Part shown: positions 7,966-46,706 of the stretch, one piece after another | Layout: each line of letters begins with the position of its first letter | Numbering within the stretch: the first letter of the stretch is position 1 | Source: Saprospiraceae bacterium | GTDB lineage: Bacteria; Bacteroidota; Bacteroidia; Chitinophagales; Saprospiraceae | DNA: 64,000 bases | Direction of reading: 5' to 3' | Assembly (NCBI GenBank): GCA_019187225.1 | Contig: JABAQQ010000010.1 | Coordinates: 1 to 64,000 of the forward strand | Position numbers and translations under genes: made by a program | The notes under the pieces: model-generated | Database searches by the model: none | What the model was told of the DNA's origin: nothing | What the model saw: the letters and a program-made list of their open reading frames with translations, nothing else

Positions 7966-8176
7966 CGTAAGCAAAATCACGCAGGTTAACGATTTGATTT
8001 ACGACCCCGTTTGAGTCACCTTTGCCAATGAATTTAAAAACAGGCTTGGTTGGTGGCGTTTTAATTGTCTCGTTTTTTTTTGCCAACAGAAACTCTATGA
8101 AATGTAGCACTTCTACCTGCATTTCAGGCGGCAGGATCGCGATGCGCTCGTTGATTTGATAACTAAGATTTGCCAT
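7958..8176 (-). CDS. DUF2281-type antitoxin of the PIN toxin
   Basis: A 72-residue protein with the DUF2281 pattern: an N-terminal helix (ERIAILPPEMQVEVLHFIEF, broken here from a longer helix) followed by a lysine/proline linker and a short C-terminal tail (RDFAYDD) likely to bind the toxin. Such proteins precede PIN toxins and repress their own operon. The overlap with the PIN gene supports a toxin-antitoxin pair. A -7 box lies just upstream at 8196-8203. Confidence 0.78.
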   Translation of the reverse strand: MANLSYQINERIAILPPEMQVEVLHFIEFLLAKKNETIKTPPTKPVFKFIGKGDSNGVVNQIVNLRDFAYDD

Positions 8177-8195
8177 TTCTGTTTATTTATACCAA

Positions 8196-8203
8196 CAAAT
8201 ATA
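8196..8203 (-). promoter_or_regulatory. -7 promoter box for the toxin-antitoxin pair
   Basis: On the minus strand this reads TATATTTG, an exact TAnnTTTG box, about 20 bases before the antitoxin ATG. No clear -33 box was found. Confidence 0.4.
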
Positions 8204-8214
8204 GGGCTTCCCGT

Positions 8215-10386
8215 TCATTTCTTTTTCCTTTTTTTCTGGCCTTTGACCAATTTCATTTCCTTAATTAAATGCCCCGCTCCACCGAATTTATCAATAATGA
8301 ACAGGATATAACGCGTGTCCACCATGATGTTGCGACAGATGGCCGGGTCATAGTTGAGATCGCTCATGGTGCCTTCCCACACCCGGTCGAAATTGAGGCC
8401 GACGAGGTTACCGTTGGCGTCGAGTGCCGGGCTGCCGGAGTTGCCGCCGGTGGTGTGATTGGTAGCGATGAAAGCAACGGGCATCCGGCCTTCCGCATCG
8501 GCGTACTGGCCGTAATTTTTTGATTGCCAGAGGTCAATCAATTTTTTCGGCACGTCGAATTCGTAGTCGCCGGGCACGTATTTTTCCATGATGCCTTCCA
8601 GGTAGGTGCGCTCTTCGTACTCCACTGCATCGCGGGGAGAGTAGTCGTCCACTTTGCCGTAGGTGAGGCGGAGCGTGCTGTTGGCGTCGGGGAAAAAGCG
8701 TTTTTCCTTAAAAACTTCCAATTGGGCGGCCATGTACTGGCGCTGAAGCGTATTGATCTGCGGTTGAAGTTCCTGGAGTTTGGGCTGCACATTGGCGGCA
8801 TAGTTATCCTGGAGTGTTTTCCAGAACACATAAGCCGGGTCGTTTTTGAGTGTTTCTGCGATTTTGGCGGGTTTTTCAGCGAGTAAAGCGGTCATTTTCT
8901 CTTTGCTGGGCAATACGCTATTTTTGAACAAATTGGAAGCCAGACCTGCGTAGCCGCCGTTTTTGTCGGCTGCCATTTTTACAAAAGCGCCTCCCCATTC
9001 CTCGCGCATGTTTTGGCCGAATATTTCCACGATGCCGGCAAATACCGCTTCATCTACTGCCGGGTGATAGTCTTTGTAAAAAGCTTCGAGGCTCGCGGTC
9101 GCTTCTTTTTGTTTGTTGGTAAAAAACGCCTCGCCGTTTTTCTCGAAGGACTCGATCCAGGAATTCAGACCGGAAGCGAGGCCAAGGACCTGGTTGTTCC
9201 GCACACAGGCTTCGAGGTAATAATCGCGTGCCAGCGCATAAGGCTCGATATCTTTATATAGTTGACGCAGGCGCGGCAGCAGGTTGCCGTATTTGTATTT
9301 CCAGTCGGCTTTTTCTTCGATCCGGCGTGTGAATTCGGCTTCGTAATCGCGCTTTTTATCCAAAGCCTTGTATTTGAGCAGGCCCTGCATCTCGCCGAGC
9401 CATTTTTTCCAGGCATTGGCGATGCTGCTTTGGCGGGCGATGTAGGCGATTTTCACCGCCGGGTCTTTGCGCATGAAGCCGTCCATGATCTTCAGGGCGC
9501 GGTCGCGCACGGCGACGCGGGCGGGGTTGAGCACTTCGGCGGTTTGGCGCACGGCCGCTTCGGTGAGGTATTCGTTGGTGGCCCCGGGAAAACCGTACAC
9601 CATCGTGAAGTCGTCCTCATCGGCGCCGTCGAGCGAGATGGCGAGGAATTTTTTGGGGCGGTAGGGAACGTTGCCCGGCGCGTAGGCCGCCGGGTGGTTG
9701 GCCGAATCGGCATACACGCGAAAAACGGAAAAGTCGCCGGTGTGTCGCGGCCACACCCAGTTGTCGGTGTCGGCACCGAATTTGCCGATACTGCTGGGCG
9801 GCGCACCCACGAAACGCACGTCTTTGAAGGTCTGGGTGATAAACAGAAAGTATTGATTGCCATTGTAAAACGGGCGGATCTGAATGTCTTCCCATTTTTC
9901 CTTTTTCGTATTCACCCGTATCTGTGCGAGGTTTTTGTCAACCTGCGCCTGTCGGGTATTTTCGGCCATATTTTCTGTCACACCCATCAGGGCCAGGGCG
10001 GTCACGTCTTCCATACGGCTGATGAACATAGCCGTCACGCCCGGCGCGGGCAATTCGCCGGCGCGGTCTTTGGCCCAATAGCCGTTTTCCACGTAATTAT
10101 TTTCCAAAGAACTGAGTTGCTGGATGGCGTCGAAACCACAGTGGTGGTTGGTCAGCAGTAATCCCTCCGGAGAGATCATTTCGCCCGTACAGCCGCCGTC
10201 GAACTGGCAGATCGCGTCTTTCAGACTCGGATTGACATTGGAAAAAATATCGTCGGCATCGAGTTTGAGGCCGAGCGACTTCATCTCTTTTTCGTTTTGT
10301 TTTTCCAAAAGAAGAGGTACCCACATGCCGCCCTGGGCATGGAGCAGAAATGGCGCGAGGAATAGAAGAACAAATAGTTTTTTCAT
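8215..10386 (-). CDS. S46 family dipeptidyl-peptidase, DPP11-like (Asp/Glu-specific)
   Basis: A 723-residue secreted S46 serine peptidase. A signal peptide ends at HAQ. The histidine is in LLTNHHCGFDA (81/82). The catalytic Ser650 is in GGNSGSP. Eighteen residues later, Arg668 in FDRVWEG sits where DPP11 has Arg673 (after Ser655) and DPP7 has glycine. DPP11 enzymes remove dipeptides with penultimate Asp or Glu in the periplasm, so acidic specificity is inferred. The length is normal for the family. The C-terminus is lysine-rich and no T9SS sorting domain is present, consistent with a periplasmic enzyme feeding amino acid catabolism. A -7 box lies at 10410-10417. Confidence 0.92.
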   Translation of the reverse strand: MKKLFVLLFLAPFLLHAQGGMWVPLLLEKQNEKEMKSLGLKLDADDIFSNVNPSLKDAICQFDGGCTGEMISPEGLLLTNHHCGFDAIQQLSSLENNYVENGYWAKDRAGELPAPGVTAMFISRMEDVTALALMGVTENMAENTRQAQVDKNLAQIRVNTKKEKWEDIQIRPFYNGNQYFLFITQTFKDVRFVGAPPSSIGKFGADTDNWVWPRHTGDFSVFRVYADSANHPAAYAPGNVPYRPKKFLAISLDGADEDDFTMVYGFPGATNEYLTEAAVRQTAEVLNPARVAVRDRALKIMDGFMRKDPAVKIAYIARQSSIANAWKKWLGEMQGLLKYKALDKKRDYEAEFTRRIEEKADWKYKYGNLLPRLRQLYKDIEPYALARDYYLEACVRNNQVLGLASGLNSWIESFEKNGEAFFTNKQKEATASLEAFYKDYHPAVDEAVFAGIVEIFGQNMREEWGGAFVKMAADKNGGYAGLASNLFKNSVLPSKEKMTALLAEKPAKIAETLKNDPAYVFWKTLQDNYAANVQPKLQELQPQINTLQRQYMAAQLEVFKEKRFFPDANSTLRLTYGKVDDYSPRDAVEYEERTYLEGIMEKYVPGDYEFDVPKKLIDLWQSKNYGQYADAEGRMPVAFIATNHTTGGNSGSPALDANGNLVGLNFDRVWEGTMSDLNYDPAICRNIMVDTRYILFIIDKFGGAGHLIKEMKLVKGQKKRKKK

Positions 10387-33998: not shown

Positions 33999-34478
33999 TC
34001 AGATTACTTCGGTGTGGGGAAGGAAATTGATTCTTATAAATGCGCCGCAGTCTTCCATCAGGTGCAAACCGGCGGGCAACGCTTTGATTTTCAGGCCGAG
34101 CGTTGTCGCTATCCCGGCAGGTATAGGGCAAGGTTCGGGCATTTCTAGTATGCCGTGGCGGAAATGCCGGCGCATGAGGTTGGCGCAGAGCCACTCGCGG
34201 CGGAAAAGCAGGGCAGCACCTTTTCCATTGTCCGATGCAGCAAAAAAAGCCCTGGCATGGCTGCAACTCGAGCGTCTGAGGACGGCGAAAGGATGATCGT
34301 TTTTCGCGACGATTTTGCAAATACCGTTGCCACCGCAGTTGGAACTGGGCGAACCGAACATGACTTCGCATTGAAAAAACATCGTCTCTGTCCGTGCCTT
34401 TTCCGTGTAGGAAGGAATTTGCAGGGAGGAGGACCATTGAGCCGCAGCAGTGATGATATTGTTGAAACCTGATTCCAT
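33999..34478 (-). CDS. Cysteine-rich protein of unknown family, module copy 1
   Basis: A 159-residue protein without signal peptide or membrane helix. The core CEVMFGSPSSNCGGNGICK gives a C-x10-C-x5-C motif (Cys37, 48, 54), followed by Cys72, Cys98 (REWLCAN), Cys117 (PCPIP) and Cys144. The end has LGLKIKALPAGL and FIRINF. The paralogue at 44182-44649 has cysteines at 38, 49, 55, 72, 98 and 117, so spacing is conserved almost exactly. Six fixed cysteines in a presumably cytoplasmic protein suggest a metal site, though disulfides cannot be excluded. It follows a 37-codon micro-ORF by 43 bases. I do not recognise the family. Confidence 0.75.
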   Translation of the reverse strand: MESGFNNIITAAAQWSSSLQIPSYTEKARTETMFFQCEVMFGSPSSNCGGNGICKIVAKNDHPFAVLRRSSCSHARAFFAASDNGKGAALLFRREWLCANLMRRHFRHGILEMPEPCPIPAGIATTLGLKIKALPAGLHLMEDCGAFIRINFLPHTEVI

Positions 34479-34521
34479 GGCGTGGAATTCCTGATATTGA
34501 AAAATCTGGCGTGTCGGTGAT

Positions 34522-34635
34522 TTAAGCGCCGTTTAAGTCAACTATAATGATATTGCCATCTGCGTCCTGGCACGTTGCTGATTCTCCAGTGAGCAGCAAT
34601 AAAATCCAACTGGCGGGTAAAATCCAATTAAGCAT
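34522..34635 (-). CDS. Micro-ORF (37 codons), module copy 1
   Basis: ATG at 34633-34635 and TAA at 34522-34524. The product starts MLNWILPASWILLLLTG, hydrophobic like a signal or membrane segment, then ESATCQDADG and ends NIIIVDLNGA. The second module has a micro-ORF at the same place ending NITGLDLIGA, so N-I-x3-D-L-x-G-A is shared. An exact -7 box at 34662-34669 would start transcription about 20 bases before the ATG. It precedes the cysteine-rich gene by 43 bases. Candidate secreted peptide, RiPP-like precursor or leader peptide; function is inferred only from position. Confidence 0.5.
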   Translation of the reverse strand: MLNWILPASWILLLLTGESATCQDADGNIIIVDLNGA

Positions 34636-34661
34636 AACCTTGAAAGTTTAATTAACTGGCT

Positions 34662-34669
34662 CAAAGGTA
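34662..34669 (-). promoter_or_regulatory. -7 promoter box for micro-ORF and cysteine-rich gene, copy 1
   Basis: The minus strand reads TACCTTTG. It lies between the terminator of the 516-residue gene and the micro-ORF, so the two parts of the module are probably transcribed separately. Confidence 0.5.
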
Positions 34670-34835
34670 TCCTCAGGCCAAGGGGACGACTTAGGACAGA
34701 AAACATGCCTTCATCGCCCGGTTATTTTCAGCACTTTCAAAGGGTTTTCTTTTTTTGGGTGTTGATTTTCAATTATTTGCAAAAACAAAAATTTACCCTC
34801 GTTTCAAATAGCGATCATTTTCCCCTTAAAAAAGA

Positions 34836-34868
34836 ACGTCCCACAGGCATAAAAAGCCTGTGGGACGT
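34836..34868 (-). terminator. Rho-independent terminator of the 516-residue protein gene, copy 1
   Basis: A perfect 13-base stem (ACGTCCCACAGGC with its complement) and 7-base loop are followed on the minus strand by TTCTTTTTT. It is 38 bases after the stop at 34907. Confidence 0.88.
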
Positions 34869-34906
34869 GATAAAAATCGGAAATCATGTGGTGTAACAAT
34901 GCCGTC

Positions 34907-36457
34907 TCAGGAGGCAAGAGGACGCAGCCGCTCACGTCGCGACGATTCTTTGGTCAAGGTGCCGACGGTGATTTGCCATAACGTCTCGTAGGGTATGATC
35001 TCGATTTCATATGTTTGGTTAGCCACTTCCATCGGCACGGAGCAGAGCATTTCATACAATTTTTGGGTATGTCGCGACACACGTTCGCGGTGGAACGAAT
35101 AGGCGGGGATCTGCAGCAGCATCTTGATAAAACAATTGCTTCGGAATGTGTCATTCTGTTTGAGATAGCGGCTACAGTATTTTTCAATACTTTCCATCCG
35201 GTCAATTGACTGCTGGTAGTCGCGGTCGGCAAGTGCGTACAATATCTGAACGATGAGTATGGGAATGTTCATGCCGCGTTTGTCTTTTGAAAACACGGGA
35301 GTTTCGTTGAGAAATTTGCTGAGTTTAAATTTGGCGTTGCGCTGAGAAACCAGACTTTCCGCCGGCAGTTTGCCGATTTTAATCAGGAAATGAACATATG
35401 CATGATAAATTTTCCACATTTCGGTGATTTGAAACGATTGGTTTTCGAAGCGTGGATTATTCATCACCCGATCCAGCACTTGTGTGGCTGCCTCATAATG
35501 GGCAGTATGCATAGCCAGCAAAAAAGACAATTCCTGAAGTTTGAACCAGTTAAAAGACCCCGAATCCACCAGATTCTGGCAGCGTATAATGATGTTTTGC
35601 CCTTTTTCAAGTTCCCGGAGCCGCAGGTAGCAAGTAATAAGATTGTAATAAAAAACCTGCAGGGCGAATCCGCTGTCGTAGTCTTTTTTGTCAAAAAACT
35701 GAACGGCTTCTTCACACAATCGCGCCGTGGTCACATAATCATTGACGCTGCTATATGCAAAAACCTGAATAAGACGGCCAAAGAGTTGGACTTTGAAGGA
35801 AGTGCATTTTTCCAGATAAGGTTTCGCTATGGCATAATATACTTTGGCCTGTTCCGACACCTCCATCTTGGTAGCCTTGTTGTTGACATAATGAATGATC
35901 AGTTCGGTATACAAGTCTTCCACCTGATTTTCCATGTGCCAGATTTCCTGAAAATGATGGAGTTGCTCACGGGTGTTTTCATATTTTTTCAAATCACCGG
36001 CATGTGTACTGTAATGAATCCGCAAGACGCGCAAAATATCGCAAGTGATATCCGTGAATTCATATCGAATGGTATGACGCAGCAATTTTTCCAAAGCATC
36101 CATACCCGATACCTTGGCATTACGCATGACGAGGATCATGGCTGCTGCCCACTTTTTGTAACACTCCAGGTACGCCCTCTGCCGGTCAGAAAACCCCGGC
36201 TCCTTAAAATCGAGCAGGAAGACCGAATCGAGCATCCGGTCTTTCAGTTTGTTTTTGAGATTGGGCAGTTTCGAGGCGTCGTCGCCGCTGTCCAAAATCC
36301 ACGACAGTGCTTCGTCATCGGAACGCACCCGCTGGCTTACGAGCGCGTCGTACAGCTGTTGCATTTTTGAATCGGGTTCCAGGATGATATCGAGGATACC
36401 GCTGGTTTTGAGTTTGGTTTTGTTGAGCAGATTGGCCAGTTCAATCAAATCTCTCAT
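34907..36457 (-). CDS. 516-residue helical-repeat protein of unknown family, module copy 1
   Basis: A 516-residue soluble protein that looks almost wholly alpha-helical, with TPR-like spacing of aromatic and small residues (YYNLITCYLRLRELEKGQ, NWFKLQELSFLLAMHTAHYE). No signal peptide, membrane helix or catalytic motif is visible. It starts MRDLIELANLLNKTKLK and ends with EIEIIPYETLWQITVGTL followed by an arginine-rich tail. The protein at 45156-46706 is also exactly 516 residues from the matching Met and similar throughout. A scaffold or peptide-sensing role like that of TPR regulators is possible, but this is inference. It ends in a strong terminator before the micro-ORF. Confidence 0.8.
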   Translation of the reverse strand: MRDLIELANLLNKTKLKTSGILDIILEPDSKMQQLYDALVSQRVRSDDEALSWILDSGDDASKLPNLKNKLKDRMLDSVFLLDFKEPGFSDRQRAYLECYKKWAAAMILVMRNAKVSGMDALEKLLRHTIRYEFTDITCDILRVLRIHYSTHAGDLKKYENTREQLHHFQEIWHMENQVEDLYTELIIHYVNNKATKMEVSEQAKVYYAIAKPYLEKCTSFKVQLFGRLIQVFAYSSVNDYVTTARLCEEAVQFFDKKDYDSGFALQVFYYNLITCYLRLRELEKGQNIIIRCQNLVDSGSFNWFKLQELSFLLAMHTAHYEAATQVLDRVMNNPRFENQSFQITEMWKIYHAYVHFLIKIGKLPAESLVSQRNAKFKLSKFLNETPVFSKDKRGMNIPILIVQILYALADRDYQQSIDRMESIEKYCSRYLKQNDTFRSNCFIKMLLQIPAYSFHRERVSRHTQKLYEMLCSVPMEVANQTYEIEIIPYETLWQITVGTLTKESSRRERLRPLAS

Positions 36458-36858
36458 AGCGGGATTCTTTCAGGTCAGTGGTAGTCGGATGTGGCTTCTT
36501 TTTTGAATAACGACAAAACGCCATCCATTTGCCGCTCAGCGGCAGAATGTTGGAAACGATGATTAAACCCCGGAAAGTGTAAAGGGTGTGTTCAGATATA
36601 CTCCCGACCGAAGGCAGGCGAGCAGCGGATTACAATTTCGGATATAAATGTAGTCCTGTAACGGTAATTGGAAGACTTTTTTGGGAGAGAAAAATTTTGA
36701 GAACGTAAAAAACCGACTTGAATCCAACATAAAACGACACGTCGCCGCCCCGTGAAAGGGCAACGACGTGTCCATAATCTGAAGTGTGTTTTGAGAACCC
36801 GGATTAGAGCGCCCCGGCTCGGGCCGGGGCGCTTCTTCATGCGTGTTCAGATATCGGA
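36458..36858. other. Gene-free spacer with two hairpins
   Basis: No coding frame is convincing. It holds a palindrome TGCCGCTcAGCGGCA (36530-36544), a 9-base stem (36736-36744 with 36764-36772, GACACGTCG) and the terminator at 36808-36833. The leader of the 516-residue gene lies at its left end. Confidence 0.5.
36808..36833 (-). terminator. GC-rich hairpin after the giant cargo gene
   Basis: AGCGCCCCGGC and GCCGGGGCGCT pair perfectly over 11 bases with a 4-base loop, 25 bases beyond the stop of the 36859-43395 gene. No T tract follows. Confidence 0.65.
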
Positions 36859-39800
36859 TTACTTCAAAAGAATCATTTTACGGGTGGCCGATTCATTGGC
36901 CGTTTCGAGTTTGTAATAAAGCAAGCCATTGGTTTTCAATGTGCTTCGATCGAGCATTACGGCGTTGTAACCTTTCGCGAAGTCGCCCGTTTGGATGTGG
37001 AGCAAACGGCCCGATTCGTCGAATACGCTCAGCGTAGCCTCGGCCGCCTCCGGCAGGTGGAAACCGACGGTGGTTTTATTGACGAAGGGGTTGGGCTGGT
37101 TTTGGTACAATTCGAATCCGACTCCGGTAACGGTTGGTCCTTGCTGGCCGTTGAAACGGAAAGCAACGTCCATGTTGGTCATCGCGCCGTCATTCAGGTC
37201 CTGATAAGCTTCGGCGCGGGTGATCCGGCTGGACACCGTGAGCATTTCACTGAGTTTGCCGGCTCTTCTGGCTTTGAATTTGATGCTGAACTCTGCCTGT
37301 GCGCCATCCGGGCCGGGTGCATTCCAACTGGTGGTAAGCGCCTGGTCGTCGGGGAACAAGGCAAAATTCTCCGCTTTCATGTCGTCGCCCGGCTGGATAT
37401 CCATGACTTTCAAGTCGTTGAAATTCAGTGTAAACTGGTAACCGGCGATTTTTTCGGCGGCATTGAAGGTTACAGTGACTTCCTCTCCGGTTTTCAAAGT
37501 TTTATCTTCCACATCGAACAGGAGCGTGCCTACCGAGCGGTCTTCGGAACCCATCAGCGAATTGGCGATTGCAGAGTTGTTCACGTCTCCGACTTTTATG
37601 GCCATAAAGTCTTCGGCCATAGCGCTTCCGTTGATGCCTGCTACCGATTTTGTTTCGGGGAAGGCGGTCTGGAAAGGATTATCCGGGTGGGGGAAAGTAA
37701 ATCCTTTGTCCACGAAACGCCATGAAGTGTTGTTGGGCAGTTCATCGTGAATACCGAGGATGAGTTTGCGCAATTCGACCACGTCGTAGGTAGTGATGGA
37801 ACCCGACCGGTTGGCATCGGCGGCGATCATTTTGAACGGCGAATCGAAGGGTTGAAGACCAAGTATGTGTTTGGAGATCAGCACCAGGTCGTAGGTCGAG
37901 ACGCCATTCAACGGGTTGTCGTCCTTCGTCGGGGTAAGGGTATAGTTCGAATTCACGGGCACCGAACTGTTGAAATGGAATTGCCCCGCATCGTCGGTCA
38001 TGCCGAAATGATTGAAGGTGGCCCCCCCTGGATCCTGGCCGCTGAGTTCGACATCGCATTCTTCCAGTCCGTCGCCCGACTCTGTTTTCAATGCCCCCGC
38101 AACGGTAGTCGTACTGCCGATGTTGCAATTGTTGAAATTGTCCTGAATCTGGATGGTGGTCTCGCAATAGGAAGCATTTCCTGCCAGGTCCATCGCCCAC
38201 AGTTCCACGGGTTGGTTGCCGAGGTCGTTGCCGCAATTGAAAGTCAGTTGCGTATTCGGCAGGCCGCTGGCATCCACCGGGAAGGTTGTGCCATCCGCCG
38301 CCCGGCGGATCGCGAACGAGAGCAGATCCTCCGGAGTGCAGTTGTCCTGAGCGTGCAGCAGGAAATCGCTGGCAAAGATCATGATCATACCAGTCTGCAT
38401 AATATTGACGCTCAGCCCATTGATGCAGATCACCGAAGGCGCTTTGCAATCCTTGACGACAAAGTTGTATTCGCAAACGGTCTCGTTGCCGCAACCGTCG
38501 CTCACGATCCATTTGATCTTGTGCGTCCCGTAAGGAAGTTCCGGCACTGTGAACACGGAGGGCGACTGCAGGGTGTTCCACCGTACGGCAGCGGTCATAT
38601 TGGTGCCATCCACTTTCGTTTCGATGGCGAAGCGGTATTTCTGCCCCAGGGGCACATTGCGCTCGTCGAAGGCGCGTGGCGTGCCGCCGGCGAAATTCTG
38701 GGTGTTCGCATTGTTGAACAGTACCGTGTTCGCATCGGGCGGATTGGTACTGCTGATCACCGTTTCCATGCTGCCGTTTTGATCCAGGTCGAGGAACAGC
38801 AGGTAACGAATGCTGATATTAGCGCCCGAGCACAGATCAGTAGCCGAAATATTCAGGTCAACCGGCGCTTCGCACAGGTCGTGCGACTGCGTCATCGGGT
38901 CGAGCCAGTAAGTCTCATTCCACAATTGATTGTCGTTGGTCGTCAGATCGCAAAACTCCACGGGGCTGGGCGGACAAAGCACGATGGGCTTGTCGGTGTC
39001 TATCACTTTAATGATCTGTTTGTACTGGTAACAATTGGCGTTCGCATCCCAGTACATACTGTAGTTCGTCGCCGTCGGGTCGGTCGGCAGCACTTTCACC
39101 ACTGTCGGCGCCCAGGGAGCGGGTGTGCCGGGCGCAGATACAATGGGGCCTGGCAGGTTGTCAGCACTGGTAAGATTGGCATTGGGATTCGGATTCGGCA
39201 CATTGATGCAGTCTGCTTGCGGAAGATAGGTACACCAGTTGATGATCTTCCAGGTGCGCTCTATCTTATAACAGGCATCCGGCACGACGGTATATATCTG
39301 ATCTTCGTACGAAATACCGAGCAGCTCGCAATCCTCTCCGAAAATTTGAGGCTGACCGAATATGCCGCTTCCATCGCACTGCGTGATCACTACATCGTTG
39401 GGGAATTTGATGTAATAGTCCTGATCGTACGTCACAACGATGGTTTGGTTGCATTGAGAGACGGCTCCCTTACAATCGTATACTTTAAATGTCCGCGTGA
39501 TGGTTCCTTTGTTGCATACGCTGTCGAATTTGGAATAATTCGCCGTGTGGGTGAGTCCTTTTTGTCCCTGGTACATCTTAGTGGAATCGAGGCAACAATT
39601 GTCGTACACCGATGGCTTGCCATAAGCCCATAAAGAGGGATCGAAGTTTTCGCAGGAAACCGTAACGTTGAGCGGTGGCTCGCAGATGGGTTTGAGTTTG
39701 TCCTGAACCTCCACCTCGATCATGCACTCATTGAATACGGGTGTGCCGTCGGGTAAAAGGCTGATGCTGCCGTCGGGGTTCAATTGGTAAACCCGCAGGG

Positions 39801-42800
39801 TGACAAACTGGTTGGTCCCGGCTTCTCCGCAATAAAACTTAATGGTATCGTCTTCGATGGTGGCTCGTTTGAATTCGGTCACTGCATCGGGGATGTTGTC
39901 GCTGCAATTGGGTGCGCCGTTCACCGGATTCAGGCTTTGAATAAACGGCGTGTAAGGCGTAGTGCGGCGAACCATCAACTTGATGTTGTTGCAGTTGTCG
40001 TACGAACCGGCATCGAACGAAGTAGCAGGTACATACGTTACGCCTGCAAATTCGCAGCCGTTCGGGTTCGACAGGTAACAGTCATTGGGATCGTCGGGGC
40101 CAAGTGATACTACTGTGTATTCCTGGCATATCGCATTGGGTGGCGAGAAATCGCATATCTTCAGCGTAAACGAACAGGTACCGGTATTGCCGCAATCGTC
40201 CGTAGCGGTATAAACCACTGCGTGCGTTCCAACCGGCAGGCAGGCCGTGGAGCCGAATACAGCCAGGGTATCGGACAAAGCCGGGTTGTTGCCGGGGAAC
40301 GATTCAACGCTGCCATTCAACAGGATGACATTTTGAATATTCTGTGTGGCAGGGTCCACTACTGTGATCTCCGCTTTGACGCTGTTGATGCGCGAACACA
40401 GATCGGAGACGATCACGTCGGGCAAATTCACCGAGCCGCAGCAGGAATAGGGGTCTGTTGTCGCGGTAATATTGGCCGGGCATTCAATTTCCGGCCCTGC
40501 ATCGTCGCGCACCTGAATAATTTGAAGGTATTCAACGCTTTCGCTGGTACACACATCAATCACAGTCCAGGTACGGCGGATGTTGTACGAACCGTCGCAT
40601 ATTTTGATGATGTAGTCGTCGTAAGTCCAGTTGAGAGAAGCCGTGCTGACCGGGAGACCAAATACATAGGGGAAACCCTGAAAGTCATGGCTTTCCAACC
40701 AATCGGGCGAAGGGTATTCACCGGAACAATCAAATCCGGGCAGGTCCAGATAGTCGTAGTTCGGCGGGAAATTCACGTCGGCAAGTGTGGGCCTCAGCAG
40801 GTAGATCGGTTGGATACAGGTAGCCGTATTGCCGCTTGCATCCTTCGCCATCCAGCGCCGGCTGATGATGCTGAGCAAGCCGGAAGCGCAATCCTGAGGC
40901 GTCGTTTGATCGGTGTAGCTCAGCGTCACGTCGCTGCAGGCGTCGAGCAGGCTCGCCGGAACATGCCATGAATTCAGGCCGTTTGGAGTCAGTGGCGGGG
41001 CGGTCAGACCATTGGGGAAGCCTGCGGTAAAGTTGCCTGTCACGTTGAAATAAAGCTCCGCAATTTCGATTTTGGAAATGTCGCCTCCCGCGTTTACGTC
41101 GGAAATCCGGATTTTCCAGGTACCGTTCACCTGTTGGCCGTCGTATGTGCTCAAAGAGCCCGCGCCGAAGGGTATCTGGATGTTTTTATCGGTGGTAAAA
41201 AACGGACAGGTCGCCGTGTTGGAGCCTTCGTCGTCGAAGCGGGCAAAAACCGGGTCGCCGCCGCATCCGCTCACCTGGTTCCAGGTATTCACGATGATGC
41301 CGGAGGGACTTTCCACCTGGATGCGCAGGTTGCCAAAAAAGGCGTCGCCGGTGACTTTGACGCGGATATCCACGTCGTTGACCGTGGAACCCGACGGCAA
41401 CGACACCGGTATGTCAAACACCCGGGTCTGAAAATCAACCACATTCTGGGGCAGATCCTGCGCGCCATAACGAACGAAAGCGGAGGTCGCCTGCACGAAA
41501 GCCGGATCAGTCGGGTAATTGCCCGGCAGGGTGACAGGGGTACAGTCCAGATTGGGCGGGAGGTTGTCCTGCACTTTGATGTCGCCAAAACACTTGTTCC
41601 CCGTAGAAGGATCGGTCACGCGCACACGGTAGGTTTTACCGAGATCGGCGGCACTCAAGACAGCTGGCACCCAGGGGCCATTGCCGAAAGGCGGCACTTT
41701 GTCCAGTTCCACCACATAATCGTCGTAACAACTGTACGGCCCGCCCTCCAGTACCTGGTCGGCATTCAGCGTTATCTCACATTCAGGGCCTAAGGCAATG
41801 AATACCAAGTCATTACACACAAGAGTGTTGATATTGTTGGAGAACTCGACTACTGTCACTTTAAAGGAGCAAGCGGCACTGTTGCCCGCTGCATCGGTGC
41901 AGAGGTAAGTATTTACCGTTTCGCCGATAGGGAATTCTGAACCCGGCGGAAGGCCGCCCATGAGCAGCGCCGTATTGGTACCGATGGCCTCGTATTTGAC
42001 ATAGCCGTTGTATGCCCGGCTTTGGAAAGTTGTTCCGAAGGGATAGGTTTTGCCTGCACCTGGATTGGAAGAAACGCGCAGTTTGCCGTCGTCATATTGC
42101 CGCGATACGCTCACGCCGTTGCCGGTGTAATTGACAGGGGCGCCGATGGTGCTGGTCAGGTAAATACCTTTCGATTCGCCCGGCGCCAGCGTGATGCCAT
42201 AACCCGGAATGGGAGTGCCGGAAGCCGGGCCAGCGGAAACCACATCGAGCGATCCGGCCATTGTCCAGGCGGCGGGATCATTCTCGTTACCCTGCCAGGT
42301 AGAGGCTGCCGTTGTGTAGTAAACCTGGACAGGCCAGTTGCCAGCATCAATGGAAGGGCCAAATTCGGTGAGTGTTATGGTCGTAAAACCGAGGTTTTTC
42401 ACGTCGAACATGATCCCCGCACTGCCATTGTCGAAGTCAATGGGGTGGGCAACTTCGCCGGGCACGGTCAGGCCGGAGTTGTCGGTACAAGTCACATTAT
42501 AGGAATATTGTTTGGTACACTGCCCGGGATCGAGGTTGATGGTGATATCGCCGGGACAGGAAATAGCCGGTGGGGTATTGTCAATCACTACGATGTTTTG
42601 CACTGCAGAAGCGACTGTGGCGCCGCCGCAGGGGTCGGTGAGTTCCCACAATACCACGTTATTGCCCTTGGGAACAGTGAGCGTCACAAATGCGCCCGGT
42701 GGCGCCTGCTTGGAAGCGCCGCCGTTGATCTTGTATTTTAAAAGGTATGAGGCATCGCAGCCTCCCGGTGAAAAAGTCGGGATGGGGGTGTTCACATCTG

Positions 42801-43395
42801 CAAAAGGCGTGATGGCATTCGGTCCGGTGTAAGCGGTGATGGCTGGCGGCGCCGTAAGCGCGCACACGTTTTTCGCCACCTGAGTGACAGTGGCCGTCCA
42901 CCCTGCTGCCGGGTTGGAGCCATCGGAGCGAAAAAGAAAGGTCAGGGCTTCCTCGGTATTAGAGCCGACGGCAGCCGAGCCCATATTGGCCGTTATGATG
43001 CCCGGGCTGATGGTTTGCCAGTTACCCGCCGGGAAGCCGGATATCGTGGCGCCCTGTGGGCCGACGACCTGGTTGACTCCAACCGTAGCGCTATTATAAA
43101 TGTAGAGCGCATCCCAGCCCGGTTCCAGTTTGAACGAACTGAAATTGACCCGAATGCGGTGGGTGGCGGGGTTGGACGGCGCGAAAGTGGCGTGCGCGTC
43201 GGCGTTGTTGTTGTAATTGCCCGCCGGACCTCCGTTATCGTAAAAATTAAAAAAACAGACGGAAGGCGGGAAAATGGTGAACGGGCTGCCGGCAGTAGCG
43301 CCGTTCGCAGCCATGTTCACGTTCGTTTGCGCAATCAGTTGTGTGCAGACGAATATGAACCCGATAACCGGGACAAGAAGATGTATCTTTTTCAT
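36859..43395 (-). CDS. Giant T9SS cargo: CUB, HYR, P-domain, dockerin, cohesin-like and sorting domains
   Basis: A 2178-residue exported protein. After the signal peptide (ends LIAQ) come a CUB-like domain (about 30-150; PGWDALYIYNS), HYR-type repeats with DNTPPAISCPGDI and similar motifs, a proprotein-convertase P-domain (about 635-785; GTWKIRISDV), further Cys-paired HYR-like repeats, a prealbumin-like segment, a type I dockerin pair (about 1827-1887; STYDLVLISKHILGL, TTYDVVELRKLILGI), a cohesin-like beta domain (about 1945-2080) and a type A T9SS sorting domain (PNPF ... GLLYYKLET, ending MILLK). It is probably a surface adhesin or matrix protein. The ATG at 43395 starts the signal peptide. 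It lies between the two copies of the unknown module. Confidence 0.9.
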   Translation of the reverse strand: MKKIHLLVPVIGFIFVCTQLIAQTNVNMAANGATAGSPFTIFPPSVCFFNFYDNGGPAGNYNNNADAHATFAPSNPATHRIRVNFSSFKLEPGWDALYIYNSATVGVNQVVGPQGATISGFPAGNWQTISPGIITANMGSAAVGSNTEEALTFLFRSDGSNPAAGWTATVTQVAKNVCALTAPPAITAYTGPNAITPFADVNTPIPTFSPGGCDASYLLKYKINGGASKQAPPGAFVTLTVPKGNNVVLWELTDPCGGATVASAVQNIVVIDNTPPAISCPGDITINLDPGQCTKQYSYNVTCTDNSGLTVPGEVAHPIDFDNGSAGIMFDVKNLGFTTITLTEFGPSIDAGNWPVQVYYTTAASTWQGNENDPAAWTMAGSLDVVSAGPASGTPIPGYGITLAPGESKGIYLTSTIGAPVNYTGNGVSVSRQYDDGKLRVSSNPGAGKTYPFGTTFQSRAYNGYVKYEAIGTNTALLMGGLPPGSEFPIGETVNTYLCTDAAGNSAACSFKVTVVEFSNNINTLVCNDLVFIALGPECEITLNADQVLEGGPYSCYDDYVVELDKVPPFGNGPWVPAVLSAADLGKTYRVRVTDPSTGNKCFGDIKVQDNLPPNLDCTPVTLPGNYPTDPAFVQATSAFVRYGAQDLPQNVVDFQTRVFDIPVSLPSGSTVNDVDIRVKVTGDAFFGNLRIQVESPSGIIVNTWNQVSGCGGDPVFARFDDEGSNTATCPFFTTDKNIQIPFGAGSLSTYDGQQVNGTWKIRISDVNAGGDISKIEIAELYFNVTGNFTAGFPNGLTAPPLTPNGLNSWHVPASLLDACSDVTLSYTDQTTPQDCASGLLSIISRRWMAKDASGNTATCIQPIYLLRPTLADVNFPPNYDYLDLPGFDCSGEYPSPDWLESHDFQGFPYVFGLPVSTASLNWTYDDYIIKICDGSYNIRRTWTVIDVCTSESVEYLQIIQVRDDAGPEIECPANITATTDPYSCCGSVNLPDVIVSDLCSRINSVKAEITVVDPATQNIQNVILLNGSVESFPGNNPALSDTLAVFGSTACLPVGTHAVVYTATDDCGNTGTCSFTLKICDFSPPNAICQEYTVVSLGPDDPNDCYLSNPNGCEFAGVTYVPATSFDAGSYDNCNNIKLMVRRTTPYTPFIQSLNPVNGAPNCSDNIPDAVTEFKRATIEDDTIKFYCGEAGTNQFVTLRVYQLNPDGSISLLPDGTPVFNECMIEVEVQDKLKPICEPPLNVTVSCENFDPSLWAYGKPSVYDNCCLDSTKMYQGQKGLTHTANYSKFDSVCNKGTITRTFKVYDCKGAVSQCNQTIVVTYDQDYYIKFPNDVVITQCDGSGIFGQPQIFGEDCELLGISYEDQIYTVVPDACYKIERTWKIINWCTYLPQADCINVPNPNPNANLTSADNLPGPIVSAPGTPAPWAPTVVKVLPTDPTATNYSMYWDANANCYQYKQIIKVIDTDKPIVLCPPSPVEFCDLTTNDNQLWNETYWLDPMTQSHDLCEAPVDLNISATDLCSGANISIRYLLFLDLDQNGSMETVISSTNPPDANTVLFNNANTQNFAGGTPRAFDERNVPLGQKYRFAIETKVDGTNMTAAVRWNTLQSPSVFTVPELPYGTHKIKWIVSDGCGNETVCEYNFVVKDCKAPSVICINGLSVNIMQTGMIMIFASDFLLHAQDNCTPEDLLSFAIRRAADGTTFPVDASGLPNTQLTFNCGNDLGNQPVELWAMDLAGNASYCETTIQIQDNFNNCNIGSTTTVAGALKTESGDGLEECDVELSGQDPGGATFNHFGMTDDAGQFHFNSSVPVNSNYTLTPTKDDNPLNGVSTYDLVLISKHILGLQPFDSPFKMIAADANRSGSITTYDVVELRKLILGIHDELPNNTSWRFVDKGFTFPHPDNPFQTAFPETKSVAGINGSAMAEDFMAIKVGDVNNSAIANSLMGSEDRSVGTLLFDVEDKTLKTGEEVTVTFNAAEKIAGYQFTLNFNDLKVMDIQPGDDMKAENFALFPDDQALTTSWNAPGPDGAQAEFSIKFKARRAGKLSEMLTVSSRITRAEAYQDLNDGAMTNMDVAFRFNGQQGPTVTGVGFELYQNQPNPFVNKTTVGFHLPEAAEATLSVFDESGRLLHIQTGDFAKGYNAVMLDRSTLKTNGLLYYKLETANESATRKMILLK

Positions 43396-43555
43396 GAAGC
43401 AATTTTTTTGAACCGGGAAATTCAAAAGAGATAAATGAACACGTTGGACGACGCCCCTCTCGGTTGAGCGGCATCGGATGGGTTAAGATATTGTCAGTAT
43501 TCAGGGTAACTTCAGAAATTGCGGCCAGGACACCCTTAAACGGGCGCATCGTCCA

Positions 43556-43975
43556 TCAATTGACCAACATGACACGGGCTTCTTCGTGCAAAGCCCGCAA
43601 CACAACTTTTGAGGTAAAGGAGGCTTCTTTGGTGTAACCAAGCGTTGCGGCAGCCGGCAATGCATTTTCGAGTGACTTGGCCAGGGTTTCGCCCCTGTCG
43701 ATCTCATACACGATGGCTTTGTAATAAGCCACACGGCGCAATGCGTTGTCGTGAAGTGGTGTACCGGGCGTATAGCCTGGCATTTGCTGGTTGAGTTGCT
43801 GTACGTGATTGACGAGCAAGCCTCTGGCCTCGTCTACGGGTTTCCAGTTGTAAGGTTGAGTTTCAGTTTGCGGCATTTGTGCCAGCGCCGGGGTTGCGTT
43901 CAGGAAGAGGCAGCCCAGCAGGAAAAGCAACGGGAGGAGCGAAAATGCACCGCCGCATTTGGTAGTTCCTTTCAT
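43556..43975 (-). CDS. Small secreted protein of unknown function
   Basis: A 139-residue exported protein. The signal peptide has a hydrophobic core FSLLPLLFLLGCLFL and ends at ALAQ. The mature part is helical with conserved-looking NHVQQLNQQMPGYTPGTPLHDNAL (part), YKAIVYEIDRGETLAKSLENA (part) and TSKVVLRALHEEARVML (part). I recognise no family. The ATG at 43975 is used because the longer frame places 20 polar residues before the signal. It lies between the giant cargo gene and the cysteine-rich gene of module copy 2, all on the minus strand, so it may be expressed with either. Confidence 0.65.
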   Translation of the reverse strand: MKGTTKCGGAFSLLPLLFLLGCLFLNATPALAQMPQTETQPYNWKPVDEARGLLVNHVQQLNQQMPGYTPGTPLHDNALRRVAYYKAIVYEIDRGETLAKSLENALPAAATLGYTKEASFTSKVVLRALHEEARVMLVN

Positions 43976-44071
43976 TGTTGTACGAACTTTAAATGAGTTA
44001 GAAGAATGTTGAAAATCAACTTCTTCCGCCACCAAAGGAAGGCCGGAGAAGTCCGGGGGATGGATTATGAT

Positions 44072-44113
44072 GATTGTAGATTGTAGATTGTAGATTGCGG
44101 ATTGCGGATTGGG
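44072..44113 (-). repeat. Heptamer tandem repeat (GATTGTA/GATTGCG type)
   Basis: Six consecutive 7-base units read on the plus strand: three GATTGTA, two GATTGCG and one GATTGGG. It is related to the repeat at 1654-1686. No inverted partner is nearby. Confidence 0.8.
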
Positions 44114-44181
44114 GGAGCGATTGAAAAAAAACGAGGAGACGACCGGCTCGCTCAGGTAAGTCGCCCCCTCGTGGAAGCGGA

Positions 44182-44649
44182 TTAAAATTTTCTGAAATCA
44201 ATTCGGAAGTACCCGTCGAGTTGTTCCACCGGGTAAAGACCGGTAGGGAGAGCATCGAACTTTAAACCCAAAGCGACGGCGATGCTTTTCGGTATCCGGC
44301 ACGGCGACTGCATGCGCAGCACCCCATTTCGGAATTGTTTGCGCAAAATGTTGATGCACAAAAACTCCCGTGGCATCAGCAGCGCTGCCGCTGCGCCGTC
44401 GTCGAGGCTGACGAACAATGCCGTCGCGCTGCTGCAAGTCTGTTTGCCCTGGCTGGCACTGATTCCGTCGTTCGCGTTGAGTTTGCAGATACCCGTACCC
44501 CGACAACCCAGGTTGGGCGACCCGAACACTACGTCGCAACTCAGCGACCGGGGTGTTTTTGTGCCCGTTTGCCCACGCAACAGCGTAGATTTGAGTAGTT
44601 CATGCCGTTTGACGGCAGCATATGCCGGTGCGTTCATGGTACGTTCCAT
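44182..44649 (-). CDS. Cysteine-rich protein of unknown family, module copy 2
   Basis: A 155-residue paralogue of the 33999-34478 product. It shares CDVVFGSPNLGCRGTGICK (C-x10-C-x5-C), Cys72, LCINILRKQFRNG with Cys98, PCRIP with Cys117, and LGLKFDALPTGL, FRIDF. No export signal is present. I chose ATG 44649 (MERTMNAPAY) because it places the cysteines at 38, 49, 55, 72, 98 and 117, almost identical to copy 1. An ATG at 44730 would add 27 polar residues rich in Thr and His with no counterpart in copy 1. It lies 105 bases after the 19-codon micro-ORF. Confidence 0.75.
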   Translation of the reverse strand: MERTMNAPAYAAVKRHELLKSTLLRGQTGTKTPRSLSCDVVFGSPNLGCRGTGICKLNANDGISASQGKQTCSSATALFVSLDDGAAAALLMPREFLCINILRKQFRNGVLRMQSPCRIPKSIAVALGLKFDALPTGLYPVEQLDGYFRIDFRKF

Positions 44650-44754
44650 ATTGAAAATGCGAAGCGTGTTATGATGAGTGGTTGGATGCGTGCTGGTAGG
44701 GTTATTAGGGGGCATTAGGGTCATTGACATTAATGACGATTGATGATCCCGTTT

Positions 44755-44814
44755 TTATGCTCCGATCAGGTCGAGACCGGTGATATTTGCCGAGGTGTAG
44801 ATTTCTTTTTTCAT
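44755..44814 (-). CDS. Micro-ORF (19 codons), module copy 2
   Basis: ATG at 44812-44814 and TAA at 44755-44757 encode MKKEIYTSANITGLDLIGA. The last ten residues correspond to the end of the copy 1 micro-ORF (NITGLDLIGA versus NIIIVDLNGA), and both lie between the terminator of the 516-residue gene and the cysteine-rich gene. Unlike copy 1 it lacks a hydrophobic N-terminus. A near-match to a -7 box (GACCTTTG, 44852-44859) lies about 38 bases upstream, inside a perfect inverted repeat that ends next to the ATG. It could be a peptide precursor or regulatory leader peptide. Confidence 0.45.
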   Translation of the reverse strand: MKKEIYTSANITGLDLIGA

Positions 44815-44874
44815 GACTGCTTACGAGCGTTTTTTTGAACTTTTGATGGGTCAAAGGTCAGCCCGTAAGCAGTC
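44815..44874. promoter_or_regulatory. 11-base inverted repeat around the copy 2 micro-ORF promoter
   Basis: GACTGCTTACG (44815-44825) and CGTAAGCAGTC (44864-44874) are exact reverse complements, 38 bases apart. They flank the near -7 box GACCTTTG (44852-44859, minus strand), and the inner arm touches the micro-ORF start codon. This could be an operator or an RNA hairpin that hides the start. Confidence 0.5.
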
Positions 44875-45080
44875 CCGGCTAAGGACAGCAATACGCCCCC
44901 GCAAGTCCGGCAGTTTTTCCGGAATGTTTGCGAGTTTTCATTATTAGTTGTTGATTATCAATTTTTTATAAAAAAAGAGGAACGCATTAAAATGACCTTA
45001 AATGGCCATTTCGGGCCTGATGACGCACTGTCGTCTGGCTGACAGGAAGGGGAAAAGACGGGTGAATAAGGCATTAAAAA

Positions 45081-45113
45081 AGCCCTCCCGGATCCGACGG
45101 ATCCGGGAGGGCT
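45081..45113 (-). terminator. Rho-independent terminator of the 516-residue protein gene, copy 2
   Basis: A perfect 16-base inverted repeat (AGCCCTCCCGGATCCG with its complement) with one central base is followed on the minus strand by TTTTTTAATG. It lies 42 bases after the stop at 45156, matching the copy 1 arrangement. Confidence 0.9.
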
Positions 45114-45155
45114 TACAAAGGAAGCGGGCGCTTCCGGGGTGGATAGGGGAAAGAA

Positions 45156-46706
45156 TTATGCTTCCTTTGGCGCCGCCGTCTTTTTCACTTTGTGAATTTT
45201 CAAATCGAGCGCTGCGACCGTGATTTCCCACAGAGTTTCGTAGGGAATGATCTCTACTTCGTGCGCCTGCCGCGCCGCTTCGAGGGGCACATCGGAAAGC
45301 ATTTTAAAATATCGTTCCGTTTTGCGGGCGACAGCTTCGCGGTGGAACGAGGCGAGGGGGATTTGCAGCAGCATTTTGATAAAGCAATTGCTCCGATAGG
45401 TATCGTTGTCGCGGAGGTAGCGGCTGCAATATTTTTCGATGCCTTCGATGCGGTCGGCGGTCTGATCGTAGTTTTTGTCGGCGAGTGAGTGCAGGATCTG
45501 AACGATCAGGATGGAAATATTCATGCCGCGTTTGTCCTTAGAGAACAGCGGAATCTCATTGAGGAAGCGGGCGATCTTAAATCTGGAGATTTTCGCCGAA
45601 ACGATGCCGGGCGGGATTTTTCCGATCTTGATGAGAAAATAAAGGTAGGCCTGGTAGATTTTCCACATTTCTGTGATCTGAATGGCCTTTTCTTCAAAGC
45701 GCGGGTAATTCACCACTTTTTCGTAAAGCCAGTATGCCTCTTCGTAGCGTCCGCTGTGCATGGCGAGCAGGAAGAACAGTTCCTGAAGTTTGAACCAGTT
45801 GAAAGAGCCCTCCTCGAAGTAATAACTGCAACGGTTGATGACCGATTGTCCTTTCTCAAATTCGCGCAATTGGAGGTAGCATACGATCAGATTGTAGTAA
45901 AACACCTGTAGTGGCAGTCCGCTATCGAATTCCTTCTGATCGAAAAAGCGGATGGCGTCTTCACACAGGCGTGCGGTGTTCACGTAGTCGTTCTCGCCGT
46001 TATAGATCATCATCTCCACCAGGCGGCCAAACAAATGCAATTTGAACGACGAGCATTCGGCCATGAAAGGCGCCAGTTCGGTGTAGTACTTTCTGGCCTG
46101 TTCCACTACTTCTAATTGCGTGGATTTACTGTTGGTGAACTGTATCATCAGTTCGGAGTAGTGCTGCTCCGCCTTGTTCTCCATCATCCAGATATGCTCG
46201 AAGTGATTATATTGTTCCCGTACCGTCTCGTATTTTTTAAAATCTCCGTCCACGACGCTGTATTGCAGGCGCAGTACACGCAGGATATCGAGGGTCAGTT
46301 CTGTGAATTCGAAGTGGATGGTGTGTCGCAGCAGGCGTTCCAGTTGGTCAATGCCGATCGTTTTTGCGTTGCGGCTGAGCAAGGTCATGACGGTCGCCCA
46401 TTTTTTGTAACACTCGAAATACGCTTTTTGGCGGCTGGAAAAGTTGGCTTCTTTGAAATGCAGGAGAAAAAACGAGTCGAGCAGGCGCTCTTTCAGTTTG
46501 CTTTTCACGGTGGCGAGCGTAGCCGCGCCTGCCTGACCGTTGCCGAATACTTTCACGGCGTCTTCGTCCGATTGGACCTCTTTTTCGGAAATGGCATTGA
46601 ATAGCTGTTCCATTTTGGAATCCGGTTCAACGATCCATTTCATCACACCGTTTCCCTTCAATTTAGTTTTCTCCAGTAAACCAACAAGTTCGACCAGGTC
46701 GCGCAT
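45156..46706 (-). CDS. 516-residue helical-repeat protein of unknown family, module copy 2
   Basis: A paralogue of the 34907-36457 product with collinear similarity along the entire length: MRDLVELVGLLEKTKLKGNG, VEPDSKMEQLF, FECYKKWATVM, NWFKLQELFFLLAMHSG, FSKDKRGMNISILIVQIL, EKYCSRYLRDNDTYRSNCF and EVEIIPYETLWEITVAAL. It is alpha-helical and TPR-like, with no catalytic motif. From the Met that aligns with copy 1 (46706) it has exactly 516 residues; upstream ATGs at 46736 and 46793 would add 10 or 29 residues. A -7 box lies at 46938-46945. A lysine-rich tail replaces the arginine-rich tail of copy 1. Confidence 0.8.
   Translation of the reverse strand: MRDLVELVGLLEKTKLKGNGVMKWIVEPDSKMEQLFNAISEKEVQSDEDAVKVFGNGQAGAATLATVKSKLKERLLDSFFLLHFKEANFSSRQKAYFECYKKWATVMTLLSRNAKTIGIDQLERLLRHTIHFEFTELTLDILRVLRLQYSVVDGDFKKYETVREQYNHFEHIWMMENKAEQHYSELMIQFTNSKSTQLEVVEQARKYYTELAPFMAECSSFKLHLFGRLVEMMIYNGENDYVNTARLCEDAIRFFDQKEFDSGLPLQVFYYNLIVCYLQLREFEKGQSVINRCSYYFEEGSFNWFKLQELFFLLAMHSGRYEEAYWLYEKVVNYPRFEEKAIQITEMWKIYQAYLYFLIKIGKIPPGIVSAKISRFKIARFLNEIPLFSKDKRGMNISILIVQILHSLADKNYDQTADRIEGIEKYCSRYLRDNDTYRSNCFIKMLLQIPLASFHREAVARKTERYFKMLSDVPLEAARQAHEVEIIPYETLWEITVAALDLKIHKVKKTAAPKEA

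Follow-up and report, generated by a model that had tools for sequence, protein, structure and literature searches.

Recurrent f516 and micro-ORF gene pairs in Bacteroidota look like receptors with peptide signals

We analysed positions 1-64,000 of contig JABAQQ010000010.1 from a Saprospiraceae bacterium (GCA_019187225.1), and we refer to this whole stretch of 64,000 nucleotides as the window. Its minus strand carries two copies of a module, each in the order f516 (a gene for a 516-residue protein), terminator-like stem, micro-open reading frame (micro-ORF), and gene for a cysteine-rich (Cys) protein. We found f516 repeatedly accompanied by such a micro-ORF, both within this family (Saprospiraceae) and in other families of its order (Chitinophagales), and also in one family of the phylum (Bacteroidota) outside that order. 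These pairs form a large undescribed family that looks like a receptor and its peptide signal. (L-numbers, such as L149, denote loci.) The two modules comprise:

34910..36457, minus strand: f516 copy 1, putative TPR-like peptide receptor, 516 amino acids, stop codon at 34907-34909 (ORF call and family alignment; fold predicted for its paralogue, copy 2)
34836..34868, minus strand: intrinsic-terminator-like stem after f516 copy 1, 13 pairs (9 GC) and a T run (stem search)
34522..34635, minus strand: micro-ORF 1, putative signal-peptide precursor, 37 amino acids, hydrophobic leader, C-terminal core IIIVDLNGA (ORF reading and motif)
33999..34478, minus strand: Cys-rich protein copy 1, 159 amino acids, optional partner (ORF call and family alignment)
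45156..46706, minus strand: f516 copy 2, putative TPR-like peptide receptor, 516 amino acids from the conserved start (ORF call, alignment, AlphaFold2 model)
45080..45114, minus strand: intrinsic-terminator-like stem after f516 copy 2, 16 pairs (11 GC) and a T run (stem search)
44755..44814, minus strand: micro-ORF 2, putative signal-peptide precursor, 19 amino acids, C-terminal core ITGLDLIGA (ORF reading and motif)
44182..44649, minus strand: Cys-rich protein copy 2, 155 amino acids, or 182 from an alternative start at 44730 (ORF call, alignment, AlphaFold2 model)

The first-pass annotation of this DNA had proposed such a duplication, with the same order on the minus strand both times, and our ORF calls and stem search bear it out. 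Copy 1 of f516 has the claimed 516 residues; for copy 2, the longest ORF encodes 545 amino acids, and the ATG at 46706 (516 amino acids) is the start that aligns with relatives. The stems lie 38 and 41 bases past the f516 stops, within the 38-42 bases that had been described. Both rank in the top three of the window by stem length, and terminator-like sites as a class are not enriched there (21, versus 17.5 in shuffles). Each module does have its short reading frame, and the Cys proteins have the stated 155-159 residues if copy 2 starts at the internal ATG rather than the first. The copies have indeed diverged: the f516 proteins are 58-60% identical and the Cys cores are 48% identical over 119 residues.

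Common C-terminal endings were first noticed in small ORFs upstream of Cys genes, then in 40 other stretches and the window, and then in 78 loci: the last nine or so residues are strongly conserved. We composed regular expressions (S1 and S2) after these examples had been seen. The strict expression, S1, matched 62 (including repeats; 51 different peptides) among the 6552 small ORFs that lie no more than 1.5 kb from f516, versus 3 of 18083 farther off in the same loci, and 61 of the 62 have the same orientation as the f516 gene closest to them. An S1 or S2 match lies within 1.5 kb of 75 of 158 non-redundant f516 genes, versus 0-6 in 12 shuffles. (The 158 genes were taken from 217 instances, as some genomes of L057-L096 recur in L097-L174; tandem f516 genes may share one peptide and are counted separately.) With three strict classes, ATG starts, and 900-bp flanks, a peptide ORF was found at 73 of the 158 genes (0-2 in 20 shuffles), and none was recognised within 900 bp of the other 85.

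The S2 class has acidic ends such as IVIIDLDEL and also occurs in another family of the order. Of its 18 occurrences, 16 are divergent and upstream of f516; the remaining pair is a single ORF in L096, counted for two genes. The third class (S3), which ends in YIIDRGEEN, emerged from motif-free clustering of the C-termini in the 83 remaining loci and was found in one family elsewhere in the phylum. Overall, the peptide ORF may sit downstream of, upstream of, or divergent from f516, with varying genes behind it. The 79 peptide ORFs have a median length of 35 amino acids (range 15-56). The conservation appears to act on the peptide: ITGLDLIGA is constant in five loci despite varying codons and different leaders, and across 52 S1 peptides several codons encode the Asp and Gly positions (the Asp is set by the expression itself). 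Furthermore, L266 has four separate mini-ORFs whose last 13 residues are identical, and L270 has one ORF with three repeats.

The f516 protein (copy 2) is predicted by AlphaFold2 to be a helical superhelix whose best matches among solved structures are Rap proteins; the predicted fold is like that of TPR peptide receptors. By profile, each of five TPR families matched just 1 of 79 f516 members (E up to 0.01). The model has helices near its N-terminus (31-40, 47-54, and 58-81) and its structural alignment to DNA-bound AimR starts at residue 5; domain scans of the window proteins gave no profile match to a helix-turn-helix. A single-sequence query matched f516 in 80 of 100 Saprospiraceae genomes, at up to ten places per genome (one of those ten is a fragment); an alignment query matched it in 77 of 198 genomes from the order and 23 of 296 from the phylum. 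A third f516 gene of the source genome (L076, contig C21, 6393-7886) has a divergent micro-ORF at 8104-8235 of the acidic type, with a hydrophobic leader and the end IIVDDVNL. We also noticed f516 on contigs labelled Kordia (its f516 and micro-ORF coordinates are identical to those of a contig labelled Saprospiraceae, the two being L150 and L151), Nitrosomonas (L167), and Thermoanaerobaculia (L172); these contigs are perhaps mis-binned.

We built a tree of the 158 receptors (FastTree) and labelled 96 rows with a peptide type. Five changes of type suffice to explain the labels, and receptor identity correlates with peptide similarity (r = 0.571; the largest of 2000 permutations was 0.155). Neighbouring genes are co-inherited, so a pair should show such agreement, but the agreement does not prove binding. 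Fifteen acidic labels were assigned by hand (14 from a broad-motif list and one for L243), and since the broad motif yields 10.7 divergent ORFs per shuffle, some of these may be chance. The automatic acidic label of L096 (down_same) is probably chance as well. In the 12-row clade that holds window copy 2, eight rows (including L099, L100, L108, L115, and L128) have no recognised peptide, and no Cys gene was found in those loci; these may be orphan receptors or their peptides may lie beyond the motif.

Ahead of S1 peptide genes that are otherwise dissimilar, the DNA has a promoter-like element in common, TGTC(C/T)-N27/28-TTTGA. (TAnnTTTG is the known -7 element of Bacteroidota.) In the window, the comparison of upstream motifs and a search for inverted repeats gave:

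34661..34698, minus strand: promoter-like element TGTCC-N28-TTTGA before peptide gene 1
44851..44887, minus strand: promoter-like element TGTCC-N27-TTTGA before peptide gene 2
44815..44874, minus strand: inverted repeat with 14-nt arms (93%), one in the promoter-like spacer (44861-44874) and one directly before the peptide ATG (44815-44828)

The exact TGTCC form precedes 26 of 52 S1 ORFs, with spacings of 27 (21 cases), 28 (4), or 20 (1), and none of the 27 S2 and S3 ORFs. It lies 26-48 bases from the ATG in 25 of the 26 cases and 123 bases away in the other. Among 27 ORFs with TGTC(C/T)-N27/28-TTTGA, 13 have an inverted repeat (arms of at least 7) that ends within 12 bases of the ATG, versus 3% in base shuffles; in the same scan none was found near the ATG of window copy 1. 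Such a repeat could function as an operator or form an RNA hairpin. In L063 and L144 an inverted repeat upstream of the peptide ORF is TGACTTCG..CGAAGTCA, and in L116, L123, L125, L134, and L137 it is instead TGACCTCGC..GCGAGGTCA, with both arms changed as a pair.

We think it probable that each module is a peptide-signalling unit, with the micro-ORF as precursor, f516 as receptor, and a regulated peptide promoter. Linkage, C-terminal conservation, peptide types that track the receptor tree, the promoter-like element in one class, and the predicted fold are what the analysis shows. To these, the model adds parts that we infer, namely cleavage, export and re-entry, binding, DNA contact, and output. 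The micro-ORF would encode a precursor, about 15-56 residues long, and the active peptide would be its C-terminal 9-10 residues. This peptide would be held in the groove of f516, a putative cytosolic TPR-like superhelix (compare Rap, AimR, and NprR), and binding would alter a regulatory activity of f516 on the peptide promoter (TGTCC-N27-TTTGA, in part with the inverted repeat). The peptide gene and the genes behind it (Cys where present, and perhaps neighbouring giant surface proteins) would then respond to the peptide. The peptide-sensing analogy drawn in the first-pass annotation is strengthened by the recurrent micro-ORF partner and by the predicted fold, which is like that of TPR receptors; the data do not support a fixed module with the Cys gene in it.

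A peptide that stays inside the cell, as a small-protein ligand or off-switch of f516 without cell-to-cell signalling, is the most serious alternative and is unlikely. By a simple hydropathy score, just 15 of 79 precursors have a hydrophobic leader (6 of 52 S1, 9 of 17 S2, and 0 of 10 S3), with 11 too short for scoring (7, 0, and 4), which would fit a peptide that never leaves. However, some leaders are signal-like (window copy 1, L113, and L164), and leaders diverge while the C-terminus stays fixed, as if the core were released. Also, in L149, L157, and L243 (the first two closely related), the leader ends in VKGG immediately ahead of the core; GG was seen there in no other precursor. Of 6 genomes tested, 5 have C39-peptidase domains; the source genome contains two C39-domain ORFs (741 and 794 amino acids). 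Together with the VKGG sites, this hints at, but does not prove, release of the core by cleavage and its export.

Bacteriocins, too, typically have GG leaders and C39 exporters, and a Cys gene directly follows the peptide gene in at least 27 of 79 cases (a lower bound, as an overlapping frame was chosen for window copy 1), so the peptide could be antimicrobial or a ribosomally synthesized and post-translationally modified peptide, with f516 and Cys serving maturation or immunity. We consider this improbable: here the core is conserved and not the leader, which is the reverse of the usual precursors of modified peptides; the cores are short and contain acidic residues; many f516 genomes lack a Cys gene; and the Cys model has no recognisable fold match. 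Still less probable is that the micro-ORF acts on the next gene as a leader peptide or an RNA-level attenuator and has nothing to do with f516. The inverted repeats beside the start codon and the terminator upstream of each micro-ORF in the window would suit an attenuator, but not the varied placement relative to f516 with different genes behind, the synonymous codon variation under constant residues, or the repeated cores in L266 and L270. Finally, the motif was chosen by eye, small ORFs are abundant, the expressions post-date the examples, and 85 of the 158 genes lack a strict match; yet the same expressions were run in the controls (62/6552 versus 3/18083, 75/158 versus 0-6, and 73/158 versus 0-2) and the third class arose without a motif, so that chance or an annotation artefact is hardly credible.

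Like f516 as predicted, Rap receptors of Bacillus (such as RapI, RapF, and the Rap of pLS20 with its Phr*) are helical superhelices with a small peptide gene near the receptor gene. The differences are that f516 has no detectable sequence similarity to pLS20 Rap (hhalign probability 0.1%), that its hosts belong to a Gram-negative phylum, that the core is about 9-10 residues, hydrophobic and acidic, and that the position of the peptide gene varies (upstream, downstream, or divergent). Nor is f516 similar in sequence to AimR of the arbitrium system of SPbeta-like phages (hhalign 0.3% to SPbeta AimR), and tblastn with copy 2 found no match in a phage collection (E up to 1e-5). No PDB sequence matched f516 either, and so these comparisons (SPbeta AimR, pLS20 Rap, and PDB sequences) gave no homology to a known RRNPP receptor. 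The Rgg-SHP systems of streptococci also place a short hydrophobic peptide beside a cytosolic regulator, and SHP cores, like f516-linked cores, are rich in Ile and Val. Unlike them, the f516-linked core holds Asp, and an N-terminal helix-turn-helix is not established for f516. GG-leader peptides with C39-peptidase ABC exporters resemble the three VKGG precursors and the two C39-domain ORFs of the genome, but differ from all the other f516-linked precursors.

By the RRNPP criteria in the sections consulted of the RRNPP_detector paper (PMC10075063), the propeptides fall within the 10-100 amino acids expected and adjoin the receptor gene as expected (at the 73 of 158 genes given above), while f516, at 496-533 amino acids among 79 members kept (516 in the window), mostly slightly exceeds the range of about 250-500 for receptors. 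The criteria also include TPR repeats seen by profile HMMs, where each of the five families reached 1 of 79 members; propeptide secretion through Sec, or through PptAB in the case of SHP, for which the hydropathy score gave a hydrophobic leader in 15 of 79 precursors; and, for members that are transcription factors, an N-terminal helix-turn-helix. In the corresponding sections of that paper and of PMC13220807, RRNPP systems are placed in Firmicutes or Gram-positives, and peptide quorum sensing by cytosolic receptors is treated as a Gram-positive trait. No report on cytosolic peptide receptors in Bacteroidota was recognised among the matches listed by a search that left most subscription papers and all bioRxiv preprints outside. 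More tentatively, Bacteroidota may have their own multi-channel peptide signalling, with up to about ten cytosolic paralogous receptors per genome, many with their own peptide, partly C39-exported and controlling surface adhesins, either independent of or far diverged from the RRNPP systems of Firmicutes. If so, receptor-peptide logic extends to a major Gram-negative phylum (with receptor matches in 80 of the 100 sampled family genomes) and offers a handle on coordination in these surface-protein-rich bacteria. The predicted peptide sequences are ready for synthesis and testing.

The Cys family has the motif GxPxxxCxGxGIC, with two invariant cysteines and a third in at least 90% of 36 sequences. 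The AlphaFold2 model of copy 2 is small and alpha/beta (confidence score pLDDT 85.8), and a fold search with it gave no clear match. Against a fixed module, Cys occurs in just 27 of 100 family genomes (alignment query; 13 of 100 with a single sequence), versus 80 of 100 for f516. Among 53 Cys places, f516 lies within 5 kb at 29 (within 2 kb at 25), so the linkage is real but optional; at the other 24, some of them near contig ends, the stretch read contains no f516 up to 5 kb away. Both kinds of counter-evidence named in the first-pass annotation do occur, with f516 often lacking Cys and Cys often standing away from f516. Thus it is the Cys gene, and not the micro-ORF, that drops from the core, and we regard the Cys protein as optional, serving as an output or an accessory. 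The third Cys gene of the source genome (L077, 6136-6585) is on contig C35, apart from the third f516, and has no f516 or recognised micro-ORF in the stretch read. In L090, a Cys-family member (8844-9302) with an N-terminus that by eye resembles a signal peptide and an altered motif (GCFGTGPCRM) lies near a second Cys gene.

Between the modules lies a giant gene that is a possible output, and between it and Cys copy 2 is a 159-residue ORF (43556-44035) with a signal-peptide-like stretch (by eye) and no significant Pfam or NCBIfam match:

36859..43425, minus strand: HYR-domain protein, 2188 amino acids, with a type IX sorting tail (domain scan)

A large ORF (at least 1000 amino acids) is found no more than 2.5 kb from 17 of 53 Cys places, versus 11% of random positions, but also from 17 of 48 f516 genes in loci without Cys. 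Six giants that we scanned have HYR, SdrD_B, SpaA, pAdhesive_15, beta-helix, SprB, or type IX tail domains.
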